A stretch of DNA of 64,000 nucleotides from Streptomyces sp. NBC_01231 (GTDB lineage Bacteria; Actinomycetota; Actinomycetes; Streptomycetales; Streptomycetaceae): contig CP108521.1 in NCBI GenBank assembly GCA_035999765.1, positions 8,370,001-8,434,000 of the forward strand, given 5' to 3'. The notes below the pieces were generated by a model, which ran no database searches, had not been told where the DNA came from, and worked only from the letters and a program-made list of their open reading frames with translations. Position 1 is the stretch's first letter; each line of letters begins with the position of its first letter. Shown here in pieces: positions 12,564-22,971 of the stretch. A program made the position numbers and the translations under genes.

Positions 12564-13967
12564 ATGCCAAGACCCGAGAAGCAGTTGACTCCGGACGCGT
12601 CTCCGCGTGACTGGTTCGGTCATGAACTGCGGACCTGGCGCAAGAAGCGCGGCCCTCTCACTCACGCCGAGTTGGGTGCGAAAGTGCAGGTCAGCGGTTC
12701 ACTCATTGAGAAGATCGAGAAGGGGACTGCTACCTGCTCGAAGGACTTGGCTGAGCGCTTGGACGAGGTCCTGCAGACGGGCGGAGTCCTCACCCGGGCG
12801 TGGGGGATGGTGTTCGGGCAAACGGAAAAACCCCGCCCCGAAACGGAAAGTGCACCCCCTGGCAGGGCGGAGGCGTCGGATCAGATCCATGAAGGCCGCA
12901 TCCTGGGCAGAGGTAGTACAACACCTCCAAGCGGGAGCCCTGCCTCTGTGGACCGTCGCGCCTTCCTCGCCACGAGCGGCCTTGCCGCCATCGCCCCCAT
13001 AGACCTGGTCCACCTCGTGACCCCAGCCGCCTCCCGGGAGATACCGACTCAGATCCGCCCGCGGGAGATCGGGCAGCTGAAGTCGCTGGCCGATGTCATC
13101 CATCGCCAGGACAACGAGTACGGAGGCGGCGGCGCGGTGCGAGAACTGGCCCGCGGTGCCATCATGTGGGGCGCCTCCCTGCTGCCGGTGCCCTGCCCCG
13201 AGCCCCTGCGGCCTGAACTCCTAGCCTCTGTAGCCCGGTTAGGGATCGTCGTCGGTGCCTCGCAGTTCGACGCGTACGCTCACGGCGATGCCCGAGTCAG
13301 CTTCCGGTTAGCCGCTGAGTGCGCGGAAGAAGCCGGGGAGTGGCACCTGCGCGCCAAGACGTACTCGTTCATGGCCCGGCAGGAAATCTGGGTGGGAGAT
13401 CCGGATACTGGCCTAACTCACGCAGAGAAGGGTCTGGTGCGCTCCGACCGACTCACCGGGACCGAGCGTGCCATGCTGCACACCGCACGCGCCCGCGCCT
13501 TCGGCAAGATGCGCGATGTAGCCAACACCCTGCGCGCGGTTGGAGAAGCCGACGCCGCGTTCGAACAGTCCGACCCGGCACAGGATCCGCCGTGGATGGC
13601 CTACTACGACTACGCCCAGCACCACGGCGACACCGCCCACGCGCTGTTCGATCTCGCGGTCCACGCGGACCAGGACCCTGGGCAGGCGGCCCGCCGCTTC
13701 GAAATCGCGGTGAAAGGACACGGCAACGCTTTCGCCCGCTCGCGCGCCATCTCTGAGACAAAACTTGCTTCCCTGGTCATGGCCAAGGGCGACGATCCGC
13801 GGCACGCGGTCGTGCTCGGCCACCGAGCGCTGGACGACGTCGGCAAGCTGACCTCCTGCCGGGCCGCCGAGGACCTGCGGGAACTCGCCCGGTTCGCAGG
13901 CCGGTACCGGAAGCTCCCCGAGGCCAGCGACCTGCGCGAGCGCATCGCGGCTACGGTGCAGGCGTGA
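12564..13967 (+). CDS. XRE-family regulator with TPR-like C-domain
   Basis: A 467-residue protein. The HTH lies at about residues 15-70 (LTHAELGAKVQVSGSLIEKIEKG), followed by a linker, a tat-like hydrophobic patch (DRRAFLATSGLAAIAPID) and a long TPR-like helical domain. Two TTA codons (13239-13241 and 13308-13310) suggest translation depends on the developmentally timed bldA tRNA; this inference is standard in Streptomyces. It overlaps the kinase gene downstream by four bases (GTGA), so the two work as a unit. The HTH operator is unknown. Confidence 0.88.
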   Translation: MPRPEKQLTPDASPRDWFGHELRTWRKKRGPLTHAELGAKVQVSGSLIEKIEKGTATCSKDLAERLDEVLQTGGVLTRAWGMVFGQTEKPRPETESAPPGRAEASDQIHEGRILGRGSTTPPSGSPASVDRRAFLATSGLAAIAPIDLVHLVTPAASREIPTQIRPREIGQLKSLADVIHRQDNEYGGGGAVRELARGAIMWGASLLPVPCPEPLRPELLASVARLGIVVGASQFDAYAHGDARVSFRLAAECAEEAGEWHLRAKTYSFMARQEIWVGDPDTGLTHAEKGLVRSDRLTGTERAMLHTARARAFGKMRDVANTLRAVGEADAAFEQSDPAQDPPWMAYYDYAQHHGDTAHALFDLAVHADQDPGQAARRFEIAVKGHGNAFARSRAISETKLASLVMAKGDDPRHAVVLGHRALDDVGKLTSCRAAEDLRELARFAGRYRKLPEASDLRERIAATVQA

Positions 13968-14845
13968 CCACTTCGCCCACGCCCACCCAAGCCGTACTTG
14001 AGGAGGCGTGCCTCGCCGCCGGCCTCGACGCGACCAACGCCGATCCGATACGGATCGCCGAGAACGCCATATGGCGTCTGCCCGGGGGGATGGTGGTGCG
14101 CATCGCTCGGCCCGGCCAGTCCGCCGCCGCAACGCGCGAGGTTCAGGTCGCCCGCTGGCTGGCCGCCCAGGGCGTGCCCGCCGTACGCGCCCTTGACCTG
14201 CGGCAGCCGGTAGCAGCCAGCGGGCACCCGGTGACGTTCTGGCAGGAGCTGCCGCCACACGAAATCGGAACCGTCACCGATGTCGTCGTGCTACTCAAGC
14301 AACTGCACGCCCTGCCAAAACCAGACCTGCCATTGGGAGAGCTAGACCCGTTCGTCCGGCTGGTTGAGCGCATCGACGCAGCGAGCACAATTTCTGACGA
14401 TGACCGGCAGTGGCTGAACGGCCGGCTTGAAGATCTCAAGCAGCAATGGGCTTCGAGGCCGAAGGGACTGCCCGAGTGCGTAGTCCACGGGGATGCATGG
14501 GTCGGCAACGTGGCGCGCACGGAGGCCGGCCCGTTGTTGATGGACTTCGAGCGCGCTTCGTTTGGCCCGCCGGAGTGGGATCTCGTGTCGACCGCGGTGA
14601 AGCTCACGACGACCGGCGCGGTGTCTGCAGAGGAGTATGCCGCGTTCTGCGAGACCTACGGCGTTGACGTCACGGAGTGGGAAGGGTATGAACTCCTCGC
14701 TGGCGCACGCGAGTTGCGTATGGCGACATACGCCGCGCAGCACGCTGCCAGCCGGCCGGAGTGGAGGCGCGAGGCGCAATACCGCATTGACTGCTTGCGC
14801 GGCCGGGCCGGGGCGCCGCCGTGGCGATGGAAGGGGATCATGTAG
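13964..14845 (+). CDS. APH-type phosphotransferase family protein
   Basis: A 293-residue kinase-fold protein of the aminoglycoside phosphotransferase/choline kinase group. The Brenner-type catalytic motif VVHGDAWVGN is near residue 170 and the metal-binding DFE (LLMDFERASFGPPEWDL) near residue 190. The N-lobe is degenerate (ENAIWRLPGGMVVRIARPG). GTG start at 13964, coupled to the XRE regulator by GTGA. Substrates of such proteins range from antibiotics to sugars or amino alcohols; nothing here shows resistance. Confidence 0.88.
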   Translation: MTTSPTPTQAVLEEACLAAGLDATNADPIRIAENAIWRLPGGMVVRIARPGQSAAATREVQVARWLAAQGVPAVRALDLRQPVAASGHPVTFWQELPPHEIGTVTDVVVLLKQLHALPKPDLPLGELDPFVRLVERIDAASTISDDDRQWLNGRLEDLKQQWASRPKGLPECVVHGDAWVGNVARTEAGPLLMDFERASFGPPEWDLVSTAVKLTTTGAVSAEEYAAFCETYGVDVTEWEGYELLAGARELRMATYAAQHAASRPEWRREAQYRIDCLRGRAGAPPWRWKGIM

Positions 14846-15451: not shown

Positions 15452-16305
15452 TCAGGCGGCGAAGGCGAAGTAGGTGCCGATGGTGAGGCCGGAGAAGGTG
15501 AGGAGCTGGCGGGGCTTGAGGCAGGTGAAGGCTGTGTGCATTCCGATGCCGGCTGCGATGGCATACGGCATCGTCTCCGGGATGAGCAGCGCGGGGGCAG
15601 TGCGATCTCCGCCGTGATGACGGTGGCCGCGACCGCACGCCAGAGGCGGACGTCTCGGGCGGTGAGATTGCCCGCGTGGCGGCGGACGAGGCCGGGGATG
15701 GCGTACTGGCGCCGGTAGGGGAGTTTCTCCCTGACCTGGGTGTAGACGTGCACCCACTGTGCAAGGTAGAGCCCGCTGCGGAATTGAGTGGAGCGGATTT
15801 TCTGCCAGGCGCTGTTCCAGTAGATGTCGGTGGTGATCAGCACGAGGAGGCACTGTGCCCAGGTGTTCGCCGTGCTCAGGCCGTGTTCGACGTGCAGGCC
15901 GTGGCCGAGGTCGCCGGCGAGCAGGAGGCAGGCGCCGGTCAGCAGGGTGTAGCGGACTGCGTTGGGGCTCTTGAGATAGAGGAGTTCCATGGCAGCTCCA
16001 GCCAGGACCAGCAGGAGTGCCAGCCGGGAGGCGATGCCGGAGGCCAGGGCGAGGGCGGCGGCCGTACGGGCGATCAGTGTGGACCGGTAGACGGTGATCA
16101 AGAAGCGGGCCCGGGCGGGGCCGAGGCGCTGTTCTGCCAGGTGGGAGCTGAGGGACCCAGGAGTGAACCGGTCCCAGCCGCCCTGTCCGAAGGCGAGCGC
16201 GAACCGCAGGGTGCACACGGTCCCGAAGACGATCCGGAACCACTGGAGCCGTCCGGGGTCGGTGGGGTGCTGGAAACCGGAGGCGAGGGCGTCAAAGAAC
16301 CACAC
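15452..16305 (-). pseudogene. HTTM/SdpB-type membrane protein with a one-base frameshift
   Basis: The first about 237 codons from the ATG at 16305 encode a multi-helix membrane protein with the HTTM look: 'PTDPGRLQWFRIVFG' opening, helices around LARALALASGIASRLALLLVLAG-like segments, and 'TTDIYWNSAWQKIRSTQFRSG'. At a run of five Gs (plus strand 15593-15597) the frame breaks. The other frame continues ALLIPETMPYAIAAGIGMHT and ends TYFAFAA at 15452. Adding one base to the run restores the gene at about 285 aa. HTTM proteins include vitamin-K-dependent gamma-carboxylases and SdpB, the SdpC-toxin maturation factor. Sequencing error cannot be excluded. Confidence 0.7.
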
Positions 16306-16648
16306 GGCTGCCCCTCACCTCCACGGGCTGCTCACCGTGCGCGGACAGGACGCGGCCGTGTCCGTCGATCCGGTCGTACTGGCCGCTGCGGGTGAGGTGG
16401 TCGATGATCGCCTGGAGCTGGGGCGGGCCGAGGATGAAGCTGCCCGGGGAGAGATGGTCGTAGACGTTCACGGGCTCGGTGCGTCCGTCCTTGGTGGTGC
16501 CGGTGAGCGAGATGACCGTGAAGGTGGCCCGGCAGAACATCTTCCAGCGCAACCAGCGGCCGGGCAGCCGGGTGAAGCCGGTGATCATCCACGCCACGAG
16601 GGCGGCGGTGACGGCGATCTGGACAGCGGACGGCACGGAGATGAGCAT
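16292..16648 (-). CDS. small membrane-anchored protein, 118 aa
   Basis: One N-terminal membrane helix (PSAVQIAVTAALVAWMITGF) is followed by a soluble part with RWLRWKMFC, VISLTGTTKDGRTEPVNVYD and a basic helical tail. No family is recognised with confidence. It overlaps the start of the HTTM gene by 14 bases, so the two are tightly coupled. In the SDP toxin system a small SdpA protein with one N-terminal helix accompanies the HTTM protein SdpB in maturing the peptide; size and order here are similar, but this analogy is inference. Confidence 0.75.
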   Translation of the reverse strand: MLISVPSAVQIAVTAALVAWMITGFTRLPGRWLRWKMFCRATFTVISLTGTTKDGRTEPVNVYDHLSPGSFILGPPQLQAIIDHLTRSGQYDRIDGHGRVLSAHGEQPVEVRGSRVVL

Positions 16649-16714
16649 CGGCAGGAGCCTCCGGGTGGGGAGGATGAAAGTGTTGGGCGGCCCCGTGACC
16701 GGGGGCGCCGGGGG

Positions 16715-17728
16715 TCAGCGCTCGGGCTTGGGGGGCCGCTGCATCAGCGCGGCGGCGGCCTCGTCGAGGGTGACCTTCTCGTGCAGCAGGGCGGAGATCA
16801 CTTCCGTGATCGGCATCTCGACGCCGTGGGCGTGAGCCAGGGCGAGAATCGCCTCGGCGGATTTGACGCCCTCGGTGGTCTGCCGGGTGGCGGTCGTCGC
16901 CTGTTCGACGCTCAGGCCGTGACCGAGGTGAGTGCCGAAGGTGCGGTTGCGGGAGAGCGGAGACGAGCAGGTGGCCACCAGGTCGCCGAGGCCGGCCAGA
17001 CCGGCGAGGGTGGCCGGGTGGGCGCCCATGGCCACAGCCAGCCGGGTGGTCTCCGCCAGCCCGCGCGTGATGAGCATCGCCGAGGCGTTGTCGCCCATAC
17101 CCATGCCCGAGGCGATACCGACCGCGAGCGCGATGACGTTCTTCACCGCGCCGCCCAGCTCGCAGCCGGTCACGTCGGTGCTGGTGTAGGGCCGGAAGTA
17201 GGTGGTGTGGCATGCCTGCTGGAAGCGGCAGGCGGCGTCCTCGTCGGGGCAGGCAACGGTGGCGGCGGCGGGCTGGCCGTCCATGATCTCGCGGGCGAGG
17301 TTGGGGCCCGACAGCACCGCGACCCGGTCCGCGCTCACGCCGGTCACCTCGGTGATGACCTGGCTCGCCCGTTCCCCGCTGCCCAGCTCGATGCCCTTCA
17401 TCAGCGACACGATCACGGTGTCGGGCCCGATGTGCGGCGCCCACGCGGCGAGGTTGGTCCGCAGGGACTGCGCAGGGATGGACAGCACGAGGTAGTCCGC
17501 GCCGTGAAGCGCGGCGGCCGGGTCGGTCGTGGCCGTCAGCGAGGCGGGCAGCTCGACGTCCGGGAAGTAGCCAGGGTTGCGGTGAACCGTGTTGATCGCG
17601 TTGACGATCTCGTCCCGGCGAGCGTGCACGATGACGTCAGTGCCGGCGTCGGCGAGGATCTTGGCGACGGCGGTACCCCAGGACCCGGCTGAGAACACCG
17701 CCGCACGGGCGGAACGGTGCTGGCTCAC
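16715..17728 (-). CDS. NAD(P)-dependent glycerol-3-phosphate dehydrogenase family protein
   Basis: A 337-residue GpsA-type dehydrogenase. The N-terminal Rossmann loop reads VFSAGSWGTAVAK (the first Gly of GxGxWG is Ser-Ala-Gly shifted). It also has 'SLMKGIE', 'SGPNLAREI' and the catalytic Lys in 'ELGGAVKNVIALAVGI', then 'GLAGLGDLVATCSS'. The housekeeping enzyme reduces dihydroxyacetone phosphate for phospholipids. Being inside a peptide operon, with its ATG overlapping the methyltransferase stop as ATGA, this copy may be a tailoring enzyme or supply glycerol phosphate; that role is unproven. Confidence 0.88.
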   Translation of the reverse strand: MSQHRSARAAVFSAGSWGTAVAKILADAGTDVIVHARRDEIVNAINTVHRNPGYFPDVELPASLTATTDPAAALHGADYLVLSIPAQSLRTNLAAWAPHIGPDTVIVSLMKGIELGSGERASQVITEVTGVSADRVAVLSGPNLAREIMDGQPAAATVACPDEDAACRFQQACHTTYFRPYTSTDVTGCELGGAVKNVIALAVGIASGMGMGDNASAMLITRGLAETTRLAVAMGAHPATLAGLAGLGDLVATCSSPLSRNRTFGTHLGHGLSVEQATTATRQTTEGVKSAEAILALAHAHGVEMPITEVISALLHEKVTLDEAAAALMQRPPKPER

Positions 17729-18606
17729 TGCGGGGTCCTCTCGCTGGACGCGGGCCCATCACCGGGGCGGCTGCTGGGCCCGGACATCCTATCGGCCGCG
17801 CCAGGCCCGGCCGGAACACGTGCAGGGTGCTGCAGGGTCAGCAGGACGGCGCGACGGCCCGGCAGCGTGGGCAGCACTTGGTGCGCTTCGCGCAGCATGT
17901 TCTGTGCCTGTAGCTTGCCCAGCTCATGCCGCAGCTCGTCAGCGTGGGCGATCCACAGCCGGTAGAGCCGGTCCCACATCGCGGGCTCGGCGGGACGCTC
18001 ATCCACGTGTTCCACCGCGAGTCCGGCGGCGCGTGCCTGCTCCTCCCAGAGGGGTTCCGCGCCGCGCCGCAGCGATCGGGTCAGGACCAGCCGGCCGCCC
18101 GGGGCCAGGACGCGACCGAGCTCGCGTACCGCCGTTTCCCGGTCGGCGGCGCGACCGAGGGCGTCCACGCACACGATGCCGTGGGCACTGGAGTCGGGCA
18201 GGCCGTTGTCCTCCAGCTCGGCAACGCGGAAGGCGGCACGGTCGGCGGACATGCCGAAGCGGGCGCGGCGGTCGGTGGCCTGGGCGATGGCGACGTGGGA
18301 GAGGTCGAAGCCCTCCAGGCGCAGGGCTAGGGCGCGGGCCAGCCACAGGCCGATGCCGCCGGTGCCGCAGCCCGCGTCCACGAGAAGCTGGCCCGGCCGC
18401 GTCCGCAGCCGCCCTGTCATAAGCCCGAGCAGGGGCCAGTCGCAGGAGCTGGAGGCGGCGACCTCGGCGGGGTAGTCCTCGCCCATCGCTGTGGCGTACA
18501 GGCGGGAGACCAGATCGGTGCGGGCCCGGGCGGTGTGGAAGGCGTCGTAGTGGGCGGAGCGCTGTTCGCCGGACGCGGGCGGCGCCGTCGTGGGGGTGGG
18601 GTTCAT
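17725..18606 (-). CDS. class I SAM-dependent methyltransferase
   Basis: A 293-residue methyltransferase. Motif I (LLVDAGCGTGGIGLWLA) lies near residue 75, with an acidic residue ending the next strand (LEGFDLS) and a motif IV-like CVDALGR. The start ATG at 18606 shares bases with the YcaO stop (ATGA), so the long open frame reaching 19362 is not the gene. Tight overlap with ycaO and the gpsA-like gene puts it in the RiPP pathway. It could methylate the peptide terminus, a backbone amide or side chain. Its C-terminal 30 residues are Pro/Ser-rich and probably disordered. Confidence 0.88.
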   Translation of the reverse strand: MNPTPTTAPPASGEQRSAHYDAFHTARARTDLVSRLYATAMGEDYPAEVAASSSCDWPLLGLMTGRLRTRPGQLLVDAGCGTGGIGLWLARALALRLEGFDLSHVAIAQATDRRARFGMSADRAAFRVAELEDNGLPDSSAHGIVCVDALGRAADRETAVRELGRVLAPGGRLVLTRSLRRGAEPLWEEQARAAGLAVEHVDERPAEPAMWDRLYRLWIAHADELRHELGKLQAQNMLREAHQVLPTLPGRRAVLLTLQHPARVPAGPGAADRMSGPSSRPGDGPASSERTPQ

Positions 18607-19745
18607 CGAGGCATCGACCTCCTGATTCGCGAACGGGTGCCGGGGCAGACGACCTGCACGGCGTGGAGCGGGTCGGCCGGGTCGGACAGGTCCAGGGCCA
18701 CCGGCTCGTACCCGGTGACGTGCGCGATCTGCCTCGCCACATCCTCGGCCTGTTGGGGGAAGCCGCCGTCGGCGAATGGGGCCGTCACCTCCGGCCACGG
18801 TGCAAGCCCGGTGGTATGCGCCGGCCGGAAGGGCGGAGTGTCGAAGCTGCCAGGGTCGCTGGGGAGGTCGTCCCGGGTTCCGGTGATGGCGGTCAACCGG
18901 GACTGCGCGGCCTCGGTCAGCGCTCGGGTCAGCGCGATCGCCGGGTCGCTGTGGCAGCCGCCGCCGGCGAAGACGACCGGATAGTCCTCCGACCACAGGT
19001 AGGCCAGGCATACCGGCAGCCCGTAAGGGCCGTCCACCAGTGCGATCTCCAGCGCCATGCTCGCGGCTACGAGCCGGTCGATCACCTCCCGGCCATGGGG
19101 GTCGTCGACTGTCCCGGGCGCGATGAGAGTGCGCCGCCTCCCGCTCGACTGCCCGTCCCGGTGCAGCACGTCCCGCTCCACCACCTCGAACAGCGCGTGC
19201 AGCAGCGCCTCGTCCCGCGTGTTCCCGCATGCCAGGCCGGTGCTGGTCGCACGCAGCAGATCCGGGCTCCACTCCGGCCGCTGCACCCGGCGCCGGACAA
19301 GATCGACCGGCAGCAGCACCTTCTCCCCGCCCACCAAGCCGGCGCCAGGCGTCCACTCCCACACCATCCGGGCCAGGATGCGGTCGGGATACGGGACCGT
19401 CAGCGGAAGCGCGGCCACGGGGCAGTTGGGGGCGACCTCGGCGGCCGGGCCGCGCTCGGCGACGGGCAGCGGTTGCTCAACGTGCCACAGCTCGATGGCC
19501 TCCATCACGGCCGACAGCTTCGCCAGCAGGCTGGTGGCGCCCTTGCCCTGGGAGGTGCTCAGGGTCAGCGAGGCGGGCCGGATCGCCGTGAAGACCGGCA
19601 GCCCGATGCAGTCCAGGCCGGTCAGGTCCGCGACCCGGGTGATGCCGAATTCCGGCAGGCGCCCGGCCACCGCCTCCCACGTCTGCTCGGGGCCCCGGGC
19701 GCGCACCGTGCCCGGCAGAGCCACCAGATCCTCAACGCCCGCCAC
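18603..19745 (-). CDS. ycaO: YcaO domain protein, RiPP maturation enzyme
   Basis: A 380-residue YcaO enzyme. YcaO proteins phosphorylate backbone amide oxygens with ATP to form azolines, amidines or thioamides. The family features are TSQGKGATSLLAKLSAVMEAIE near residue 65 (read in pieces), the ATP/Mg segment ACGNTRDEALLHALFEVVERD near 170, and ALTEAAQSRLTAI near 275. No C-terminal PxPxP tail of azoline-type YcaOs is present. GTG start at 19745 with a GGAGG site, overlapping tfuA by 14 bases. Together with TfuA and a Cys-free precursor, thioamidation is the best-supported activity. Confidence 0.93.
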   Translation of the reverse strand: MAGVEDLVALPGTVRARGPEQTWEAVAGRLPEFGITRVADLTGLDCIGLPVFTAIRPASLTLSTSQGKGATSLLAKLSAVMEAIELWHVEQPLPVAERGPAAEVAPNCPVAALPLTVPYPDRILARMVWEWTPGAGLVGGEKVLLPVDLVRRRVQRPEWSPDLLRATSTGLACGNTRDEALLHALFEVVERDVLHRDGQSSGRRRTLIAPGTVDDPHGREVIDRLVAASMALEIALVDGPYGLPVCLAYLWSEDYPVVFAGGGCHSDPAIALTRALTEAAQSRLTAITGTRDDLPSDPGSFDTPPFRPAHTTGLAPWPEVTAPFADGGFPQQAEDVARQIAHVTGYEPVALDLSDPADPLHAVQVVCPGTRSRIRRSMPR

Positions 19746-21000
19746 AGGTCGCCTCCGTCACCTCGGTCGTCGCGGTCATCTCGTCCAGCAGCCCGGGTAC
19801 GAGCCGCTTGGCCGTCTCGACGGCGCGCGCCCCGCATACCAGCCCGCGCGCGGACGCCTCCGCGTCGAACCGCTCCACGGGGCACTGCCACACACGCAAC
19901 AGGTGTCGGCGGGTGAGGTCGTCGCGCACCGCTGCGGTCGAGAACCCGGGCCGGCGGCGGCGTTCGCGCGCGAGGGCGTCTGCATACCGGGCGACCGCCT
20001 GGCGGTCCATCTCGGTCTCGCCTGCCAGCAGCAGGGCCACGGTCGCCTCGTTGCGCAGGTCGATCGCCGGGTGGAACACGCGGTCGGCGGGCAGGTCGTT
20101 GCCGGTGACCTCGGCCAGCCGCTCGGCCAGTGGTAGGCCCGGCCCGCCGTCGGCGGCGGGGTGGAGTGAGCGGTGTTCGAGGTAGGCCGCCCACGTCTCG
20201 TGGAACGCTGGGTCGAACACCTGCTGGTAGACGAGGCGGTCCTCGGTGGACAGGTCTAGCCCGTCCACGCATGTCCGGGCGAAGGCGTTGGACCAGCGCC
20301 GGAAGTACGTCGTCTCCCACACCACCGGCGCTGGCTGGGTGTCCGGCTGTGGTGCCTGGCCGCCGACTGCCATGCGTACGGCCGCTAGGGCGTCGGCGCG
20401 TTTGAGATCGCCGAAGTGCCGGTCCTGCTCGCGCTGTTCGGCCAGCCACCCCGCGAACTCCGTCTCGCCCTGGCGGCGGCAGACGGACCGCACCGCGGCC
20501 GTGGTGCGCTGCGGATAGTAGACCGCGCGCAGCGCCGCCAGCAGACGGGCGGCCCGCTCGCCGTCGAGCACCGCGGCCGACCGGGCCAGCTGAAGGACGT
20601 GCCGGAGGTTGACCACCGGCCAGGTCAGCGCGTCCCACTCCCCGTCCGGGGCCTGTCCGACCGCCACCTCGTCGTCGCCGTCGATCTCCCCCGAAGCGTA
20701 GGCGCTGTAGATGCGGCCGACCCCGAGCATCCCGTACGGCGCCAGTTCGGCCGCCCGCAGCGCGCCGATGCTCGCTGCCCCGACCACCCGGACCTCTCGG
20801 CCCATCACGGCCAGGATCTCCTTATGACGCAGCGCCGGCGCCTGGTGATACGCCCCGTCGATGACCACCACCGTGTCTCCGCCTCGGATCGCAGAATCGA
20901 ACAGGTCTCCGTGCCGTGCTGGCGGCCACACCCGCACATCCGGAGCGGCAAGCTGCGGCTCGGACCGCGGCAGGGTCGGCCCGACGAACACGTGAATCAC
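19732..21000 (-). CDS. tfuA: TfuA-like protein
   Basis: A 422-residue TfuA protein. The TfuA core lies at residues about 1-150: IHVFVGPTLP, DTVVVIDGAYHQAPALRHKEIL, GAASIGALRAAELAPYGMLGVG and IYSAYASGEIDGDDEVAV. A helical C-terminal half follows, longer than in minimal TfuA proteins. TfuA partners help YcaO enzymes install thioamides, as in methyl-CoM reductase and actinobacterial thioamidated peptides. The GTG at 21000 follows a GGAGG; the ORF continues upstream to 21219 but over the precursor gene. It lies 91 bases downstream of the precursor stop. Confidence 0.93.
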   Translation of the reverse strand: MIHVFVGPTLPRSEPQLAAPDVRVWPPARHGDLFDSAIRGGDTVVVIDGAYHQAPALRHKEILAVMGREVRVVGAASIGALRAAELAPYGMLGVGRIYSAYASGEIDGDDEVAVGQAPDGEWDALTWPVVNLRHVLQLARSAAVLDGERAARLLAALRAVYYPQRTTAAVRSVCRRQGETEFAGWLAEQREQDRHFGDLKRADALAAVRMAVGGQAPQPDTQPAPVVWETTYFRRWSNAFARTCVDGLDLSTEDRLVYQQVFDPAFHETWAAYLEHRSLHPAADGGPGLPLAERLAEVTGNDLPADRVFHPAIDLRNEATVALLLAGETEMDRQAVARYADALARERRRRPGFSTAAVRDDLTRRHLLRVWQCPVERFDAEASARGLVCGARAVETAKRLVPGLLDEMTATTEVTEATCGGR

Positions 21001-21029
21001 TGTGACCTCCAGACAGGTGAAGCGTGGCG

Positions 21030-21069
21030 GGCGCCCCTCCCGGGCCCGATAGGGACAGGGAGGGACGCC
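21030..21069 (-). terminator. 12-bp stem hairpin between precursor and tfuA
   Basis: Arms at 21030-21041 and 21058-21069 pair over 12 positions with one G-U wobble, around a 16-base loop. There is no U tract. In RiPP operons such a hairpin after the precursor gene commonly gives partial termination or mRNA protection, so more precursor than enzyme is made. Confidence 0.65.
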
Positions 21070-21091
21070 GGTCAGAACGAGCGCGAGGGTG

Positions 21092-21202
21092 CTACTCCTC
21101 GTCTTCGACGTCGACCGCGACCACGACGGCTCCGGTGATCTCCCCGGTCTCCTCCGTCGAAGCCGAGGCGCTGACTGTGGCGACAGATTTGGGCTGTTCC
21201 AT
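21092..21202 (-). CDS. 36-residue RiPP precursor peptide, candidate
   Basis: The ATG at 21202 has an exceptionally good AAGGAGGAGG site (21206-21215) and the frame ends at a TAG at 21092-21094. The peptide begins MEQPKSVATVSASAS, continues TEETGEITG and ends in a hydrophobic then acidic tail (AVVVAVDVEDEE). It has no Cys, so YcaO cannot make thiazoles; backbone thioamides, or oxazolines on Ser/Thr, remain possible. It is the first gene of the operon with tfuA and ycaO. There is no double-Gly or obvious leader cut site. Which end is the core is unknown; the Val/Ala-rich C-terminus is my first guess. Confidence 0.8.
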   Translation of the reverse strand: MEQPKSVATVSASASTEETGEITGAVVVAVDVEDEE

Positions 21203-21594: not shown

Positions 21595-22971
21595 GTGACC
21601 CGTCCTCAGCAGCGCCCGCAAAAGCTTCCCAACACGGCCTTAGCAGGTTGGATCACCAGGTCTGGGAGGAGCTACGGCGCCCTAGCCCTCGAATTGAAGA
21701 ACGACTTGTGGATCACGGGCCACACCGACGCCCGCCCACCGCACCGCACCCGGATCGGCCACTGGGTCCGCGACGGCGAGATTCCCAGAGACCCCTTACC
21801 GGTGGTCCTTGCCTACACCCTCACCCGCCTCTGCGGGCTCTCCCAAGCTCTGACGCCCGCTGATCTGGGTATGGACCCAAACGCGGCATCCGGCCGTGGC
21901 CCTGACCATCCTGCGTCGCCTGCCGCGACGCCCGACGAAGCAGGTGATCCCACGAAGCGACGCACCGCCCTCGCGCTGATCGGCGGCACGGCCCTGGCTC
22001 CGCTCATGAACCCTGGCTCCGCGAGCGCCGCCACTGCGCGCGCCTACGCCCAGCATGCGACGCTCACAGAGCTCGACCCTTCCGATATCGCGGAACTCGA
22101 AACGGCCGTCGACGGCTTAGGCACCACGTACTCCTCCCAGCCGCCGCGCGAATTGTGGCCGACGGCCGCACGCATGAGGCACCGCGTCTTCACGTTCCAG
22201 CACGAACACCGGCACACCCTGCGCGAGGCCCGCGAACTCGCCCGCCACGCCGGCATGCTCTCGGTGATCCTCGCCTGGGTCGCACACGACCTCGGCGAAG
22301 GTGACCTGGTCCAGGCTTACTGCGATGACGCCTGGGCGCAGGGTGAGCAGGCCGACCTCCCCGAGGTCGGCGCCTGGGCCGAAGACGTCCGCAGCACCCA
22401 CGCTCTCTACGACAGCCGCCCCTTGGACGCGCTGCTCGCGGCAACCCGCGGCCTGGCCGTCGCTCCCCGGGACGGCAACGCCGCTGTACGCCTGTCCGCT
22501 CAAGTCGCCCGCGCCCACGCCCGGCTCGGCAACCACCACGAGTTCGAACGAGCCGCCGTACGCGCCCGTGATTACCAGGCGCAGCTGCCGCTCCACGGCA
22601 CCGGGCTGTTCGGCGTCGACGCGGTGCGCATCACTTCCTATGACGCCTCCTCGTACGGCTGGCTCGGCCACGCCAACCGTGCACGCGCAGCTGCCGAAGA
22701 AGCCATCGGCCACTACCGCAGCTTCCCCCGCCTTCTCCAAGCCCCCACCCGGCTTGCGATCGCCCAGCTCGACTTGGCCCAAGCGCACTCAGCGCTCGGC
22801 GAACCGGACGCCGCCGTTGCCACCGCCCGCCAAGCCCTCACCAGCGGCCGACTGGTCGACTCCGTCCGAGGCCGCGCCCAGCAACTCGACCGCACCCTGC
22901 AGCGCCGTTACCCCCAAGCCCACGCCGTGACGGAGTTCGAGGAGGAACTAAAGGTCCTCCTCGCCGTGTGA
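21595..22971 (+). CDS. XRE/TPR-type regulator next to RiPP operon
   Basis: A 458-residue protein of the Streptomyces regulator type with an N-terminal HTH-like part (SYGALALELKNDLWITGHTD, RTRIGHWVRDGEIP), an 'RRTALALIGGTALAP' patch and a TPR-like C-terminal half (many Ala/Arg helices, e.g. AAVRLSAQVARAHARLGNHHEFERA in pieces). GTG start at 21595. Three TTA codons (21640, 21796 and 22117) make bldA-dependent translation likely. It is divergent from the RiPP operon, so it is the natural candidate for its control. Same architecture as the broken gene at 9705. Confidence 0.85.
   Translation: MTRPQQRPQKLPNTALAGWITRSGRSYGALALELKNDLWITGHTDARPPHRTRIGHWVRDGEIPRDPLPVVLAYTLTRLCGLSQALTPADLGMDPNAASGRGPDHPASPAATPDEAGDPTKRRTALALIGGTALAPLMNPGSASAATARAYAQHATLTELDPSDIAELETAVDGLGTTYSSQPPRELWPTAARMRHRVFTFQHEHRHTLREARELARHAGMLSVILAWVAHDLGEGDLVQAYCDDAWAQGEQADLPEVGAWAEDVRSTHALYDSRPLDALLAATRGLAVAPRDGNAAVRLSAQVARAHARLGNHHEFERAAVRARDYQAQLPLHGTGLFGVDAVRITSYDASSYGWLGHANRARAAAEEAIGHYRSFPRLLQAPTRLAIAQLDLAQAHSALGEPDAAVATARQALTSGRLVDSVRGRAQQLDRTLQRRYPQAHAVTEFEEELKVLLAV

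Follow-up and report, generated by a model that had tools for sequence, protein, structure and literature searches.

Streptomyces sp. NBC_01231 carries, within the 64,000-nucleotide stretch of its genome which we analysed (the window), a tfuA-ycaO pair followed by genes for a methyltransferase (MT), a GpsA-type dehydrogenase and two membrane proteins. This raises the question of whether all of these genes serve one RiPP pathway, and what the dehydrogenase and the membrane proteins would do in it. We found that the operon is a real, conserved gene set which is often plasmid-borne in Streptomyces, and that it probably makes a sulphur-modified small peptide.

Gene content and spread of the operon

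A preliminary description had read the locus as seven genes on one strand with overlaps or short gaps, and the coordinates and Pfam matches bore this out: the genes occupy 15452-21202 on the minus strand. They begin with a precursor peptide gene at 21092..21202 (36 aa, an ORF with a ribosome binding site, ending VVVAVDVEDEE), followed by tfuA at 19732..21000 (422 aa, GTG start; Pfam TfuA, 2.9e-41), ycaO at 18603..19745 (380 aa; Pfam YcaO, 9.2e-58), a class I SAM-dependent MT gene at 17725..18606 (293 aa; Pfam Methyltransf_25, 1e-14) and a second gpsA at 16715..17728, encoding an NAD(P)H-dependent glycerol-3-phosphate dehydrogenase (337 aa; Pfam NAD_Gly3P_dh_C, 3e-52; NCBIfam PRK00094 subfamily, 4.8e-135). 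The last two genes encode a 118-aa protein (16292..16648), with one transmembrane helix and a domain resembling the luminal domain of vitamin-K-dependent gamma-carboxylase (VKGC) by AF2 model and profile match, and an HTTM protein resembling the VKGC membrane half. Overlaps of 14 bp join tfuA to ycaO and the 118-aa gene to the HTTM gene, overlaps of 4 bp join ycaO to MT and MT to gpsA, and the gap between gpsA and the 118-aa gene is 66 bp.

The final gene had been described as HTTM/SdpB-type. An HTTM gene is present, but it is not intact, as its end at 15452 is off the frame in which it starts. A profile of intact relatives matched 16305-15589 in one frame (profile positions 1-239; feature 15589..16305, minus strand) and 15595-15455 in another (238-284; the conserved C-terminal end, feature 15452..15595, minus strand). 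The two frames meet at about 15589-15595, and the first continues to 15391. The gene is broken in the window sequence, by either a real frame loss or a sequencing error, and the product of this strain may therefore lack any step which depends on the membrane pair.

On the other side of the operon lies a divergent regulator-like gene (21595..22971, plus strand, 458 aa; weak Pfam TPR_4 match, 0.0058), which may belong to the pathway; in many relatives its place is taken by HTH/TPR-type genes of several different families. An APH-family phosphotransferase gene (13964-14845) converges on the operon. It was rejected as a pathway member: none of the 29 loci searched had a match close to the cluster, and L239 carries a differently related gene. 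A defence system was also rejected, PADLOC yielding just a generic methyltransferase match (mad2).

Relatives of the TfuA were found in 68 of the 392 Streptomyces genomes searched, and the YcaO search gave 47 loci in GTDB contigs plus 293 plasmid records, 21 of the 293 at ≥ 60% identity. We examined 25 loci of one subgroup (subgroup A) which extend far enough downstream (the window, L034-L043, L080-L084 and L238-L246); L033 was left out of this count because its contig ends in gpsA, and two pairs among the 25 are near-identical (L244/L245 and L034/L243). All 25 contain tfuA (partial in L039 and split in two in L040), ycaO, MT and the second gpsA, while the 118-aa gene was found in 23 and an intact HTTM gene, with copies of 284-286 aa, in 20. 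Of the five loci without an intact HTTM, L039 and L084 have no copy at all, the window has lost the frame, L245 carries an in-frame stop, and the L041 copy (24%) diverges close to where its contig ends. Plasmid records of Streptomyces and Embleya supplied nine of the subgroup-A loci; the gene order is the same in each of these, and their last two products are annotated by NCBI as hypothetical. Five more distant Streptomyces loci (subgroup B: L085, L086, L088, L090 and L092) also contain tfuA-ycaO-MT-gpsA, with no match to the 118-aa protein or the HTTM at E 1e-4.

The genes flanking the operon mostly differ between loci. Median dN/dS, which was computed for four of the genes with tfuA and ycaO left out, was 0.42 for MT (11 loci), 0.30 for gpsA (14), 0.50 for the 118-aa gene (13) and 0.38 for the HTTM gene (12). 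Because the gene set recurs in 25/25 loci, with these dN/dS values and mostly different flanks, a chance arrangement can be excluded. The genes tfuA and ycaO co-occur with MT and gpsA across both subgroups, and the constancy of MT and GpsA makes them pathway members. The suggestion that both unusual parts belong to the pathway thus held for GpsA; the membrane pair, which subgroup B lacks and which has been lost or disrupted in 5 of the 25 subgroup-A loci, is an accessory module rather than part of the core, and marks subgroup A.

The proposed identity as a TfuA-YcaO RiPP-type operon was upheld by the adjacent, overlapping tfuA and ycaO and by a conserved short peptide. A similar precursor with the same N- and C-terminal motifs lies ahead of tfuA in 24/25 subgroup-A loci and was not found in L039. 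Subgroup-A peptides start M(x)SKS or similar, and most end (V/I)V(V/I)A-x-D-V-(E/F)-D-E-E, with L083 and L043 differing after DVE; subgroup-B-type peptides (8 loci) carry VV(R/K)xED(V/T)E followed by varied ends. For 13 subgroup-A peptides, the final 14 codons gave a median pS of 0.37 and a median pN of 0.094. The alignment of the TfuA with the solved structure of TfuA (6xp8) covers residues 23-170 (E = 7.3e-26), and the best solved relative of the YcaO is MJ1094 (6pe3; E = 1.4e-26). It should also be noted that residues from about 210 to 422 of TfuA form a long C-terminal extension with weak helix-turn-helix-like matches only, which could be a peptide-binding domain, and that in L053 and L059 a methyltransferase approximately 49-50% identical to the cluster MT lies beside a differently arranged ycaO-tfuA pair.

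The second glycerol-3-phosphate dehydrogenase

The cluster GpsA matches true glycerol-3-phosphate dehydrogenases across the conserved motifs, and is 61% identical to the other copy in the same genome, at 7.14 Mb. It would be an active enzyme which either makes or uses glycerol 3-phosphate (G3P) or dihydroxyacetone phosphate (DHAP), or serves as a spare copy of the target of the product; the gene could indicate a cellular target or glycerol-phosphate chemistry in a peptide pathway. An alternative for both unusual parts is self-protection: the peptide would hit glycerol-3-phosphate dehydrogenase or the membrane, the GpsA encoded in the operon would be resistant to it, and the membrane pair would be an immunity device. 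Several observations are consistent with this. All 12 genomes with a cluster gpsA hold another gpsA, 35 positions separate cluster-A GpsA from Streptomyces housekeeping GpsA while the catalytic motifs are kept, and the operon contains no dedicated transporter or protease. The trees group the subgroup-A copies with those of B1, while the B2 copies branch next to the Streptomyces housekeeping GpsA, as if the gene had been recruited twice. However, independent recruitment was only suggested by the tree, and a single origin of the cluster copies was not rejected (AU p = 0.088, on 35 of 67 rows, after thinning and the removal of long outgroup rows). Inhibition of GpsA is a postulate of this reading, and plain use of G3P or DHAP by the pathway would look alike. 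We regard self-protection as possible but rather improbable.

The membrane protein pair

It is well supported that the HTTM protein matches the membrane half of VKGC/GGCX: the HTTM membrane fold is present, and the model of an intact relative matched GGCX 37-312, although its pLDDT is only 67. The correspondence of the 118-aa protein to the last helix and luminal domain of VKGC is weaker. Its AF2 model (pLDDT 80) has a weak fold match to GGCX 408-503, and its profile match to bacterial VKGC was equalled by 1 of 300 shuffles. When these two alignments, of the HTTM and of the 118-aa protein, were used by themselves in profile searches of the PDB, GGCX was not found. The VKGC alignment matches GGCX (E = 3e-83), with its invariant lysine on the second lysine of a KK pair, the base K218. 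GGCX is described as using K218 as base, with N159, H160 and Y395 holding the glutamate (PMC12589487). The catalytic-base lysine is kept in the cluster, K169 being invariant in 12/12 HTTMs and aligned to K218 by hhalign, although hmmalign places it in only 5 of the 12 rows. In contrast, the glutamate-binding histidine (GGCX H160), found in 11/11 VKGC rows, is present in 0/12 cluster rows (6 Ala, 6 gap), which weakens the claim of a plain gamma-carboxylase.

The pair also appears to differ from VKGC in its orientation. In VKGC the cytosolic-side loops are positive, whereas in the cluster HTTMs the outer-side-equivalent loops have a mean of 15.7 Lys+Arg and 2.7 Asp+Glu and the cytosol-equivalent loops 1.8 Lys+Arg and 3.7 Asp+Glu (hand-set segments). 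When the segments were set from the VKGC profile, net loop charge was reversed in 18/20 cluster HTTMs, comprising 11/12 alignment rows and 7/8 plasmid copies (one tie), compared to 0/79 control rows: 0/11 VKGC, 0/38 SdpB/DUF5819-type and 0/30 other Streptomyces HTTMs, the latter two sets overlapping slightly. The loop charge thus does not fit the outer (luminal) active site of VKGC/GGCX. In the 118-aa protein, the side following the helix is the more positive one in 14/14 rows, as it is in 10/30 DUF5819 and 1/4 SdpA proteins. By the positive-inside rule, the reversed charges lead to the prediction that the pair, and with it the active site, faces the cytosol.

Taken together, the pair resembles VKGC/GGCX cut in two and apparently turned to face the cell interior. 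The HTTM fold, the catalytic-base lysine and a helix order as expected of a cut protein are shared, and the partner may correspond to the luminal domain; the differences are the use of two genes instead of one, with the luminal half encoded first, the missing glutamate-binding histidine and the reversed charge pattern.

The preliminary description had instead labelled the two genes an SdpA/SdpB-like pair. An ordinary pair of the SdpA/SdpB or DUF5819/HTTM type, acting on an exported peptide, would share the layout of the SDP cannibalism system, in which a small protein with one helix also accompanies an HTTM protein. The cluster HTTM scores 43.0 against the mixed SdpB/HTTM set and 38.4 against VKGC, and the catalytic lysine occurs in 35/38 members of the former set. 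However, the NCBIfam SdpB model (TIGR04033) did not match the cluster HTTM, its sole match in this genome being another gene at 5.27 Mb, the Pfam SdpA model (PF17418) matched nothing in the genome, searches made with the cluster proteins themselves likewise gave no match to these families, and a profile of the 118-aa protein found no alignable SdpA or DUF5819. Charge orientation like that of the cluster is also absent from the SdpB/DUF5819 controls. The cluster HTTM does have the broad HTTM fold in common with SdpB, but its 118-aa partner probably corresponds to the luminal domain of VKGC instead. The label is unsupported beyond the shared HTTM domain, and we dropped this reading as quite unlikely. 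To our knowledge, what the HTTM protein does in SdpAB is an open question in the field. A search for relatives of the cluster HTTM elsewhere, covering 296 genomes of the class, gave three (this genome, one short-frame remnant and one weak match). At C1:5267054-5268654 of the same genome, a DUF5819 gene adjoins another HTTM gene, a common Streptomyces pair.

A proposed pathway and its relation to described systems

Our favoured reading, to which we give about an even chance, is a RiPP operon with thioamidation by TfuA-YcaO, methylation by MT, a GpsA which serves the pathway and a two-piece, cytosol-facing lysine enzyme related to VKGC. Judging from the enzymes encoded, YcaO and TfuA would introduce at least one backbone thioamide into a precursor of 33-45 residues, and the methyltransferase would add a methyl group. 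The two membrane proteins of subgroup A would make up a two-piece enzyme which is descended from, or shares ancestry with, VKGC: the HTTM would supply the membrane half, including the catalytic-base lysine, and the 118-aa protein would correspond to the last helix plus the luminal domain. The two proteins are predicted to be inverted in the membrane, so that the active site would meet the precursor in the cytosol. Most likely the lysine, perhaps with menaquinol, would pull a proton off the peptide and lead to a further modification, for which carboxylation, epimerisation and dehydration are indistinguishable here. A more specific version, in which the two-gene, inside-facing enzyme modifies the conserved acidic tail of the thioamidated peptide in the cytosol (e.g. 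to gamma-carboxyglutamate) by menaquinol-driven proton abstraction, is doubtful; if true, quinone-coupled carbanion chemistry would enter RiPP biosynthesis. It is very unlikely that TfuA-YcaO alone makes the product while the MT, GpsA and membrane genes travel along and act elsewhere, as might be supposed from the related MT of L053 and L059 and from relatives without MT and gpsA (L089), given the 4-bp overlaps from ycaO to gpsA and an order which is constant in 25 subgroup-A and 5 subgroup-B loci.

Several described systems share parts of this layout. TfuA-YcaO clusters for thioamidated RiPPs of actinobacteria were surveyed with RiPPER in 2019 (PMC6511847), and these likewise have adjacent tfuA and ycaO genes and a short peptide at the start of the operon. 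The survey's "Network 2" groups 25 Streptomyces peptides, 6 of them annotated, which are encoded first in a conserved operon (PMC6511847). Our family may be this network, to which we liken it by description only: the main text of the survey does not state which genes make up the Network 2 operon and does not mention SdpA, SdpB, HTTM, glycerol-3-phosphate, methyltransferase or membrane protein. Clusters for thiovarsolin and thioviridamide-like peptides also have YcaO and TfuA, but the thiovarsolin genes varO, varL, varP and varS have no counterpart among the six cluster proteins scanned. HTTM proteins are part of linaridin clusters, where their mechanism "remains unclear" (PMC9927463), and an HTTM in a RiPP cluster is therefore not new in itself. 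CrdG of the corynaridin cluster, which we compared by description only, is likewise an HTTM protein in a RiPP cluster without a leader protease, but linaridin clusters contain LinL and other genes which were not seen here (PMC9927463). Our literature search did not find TfuA, YcaO and glycerol-3-phosphate dehydrogenase together, nor a description of the operon layout among the matches listed.

This peptide family is well bounded and widespread in Streptomyces, and two of its partners still call for an explanation; if the pair is a split, cytosol-facing VKGC relative it would provide a small, soluble-side model for the function of bacterial HTTM proteins. Remnants of the operon, with stops or as fragments only, were also present at L209 (G013), L098, L099 and L091, which suggests frequent gain and decay.
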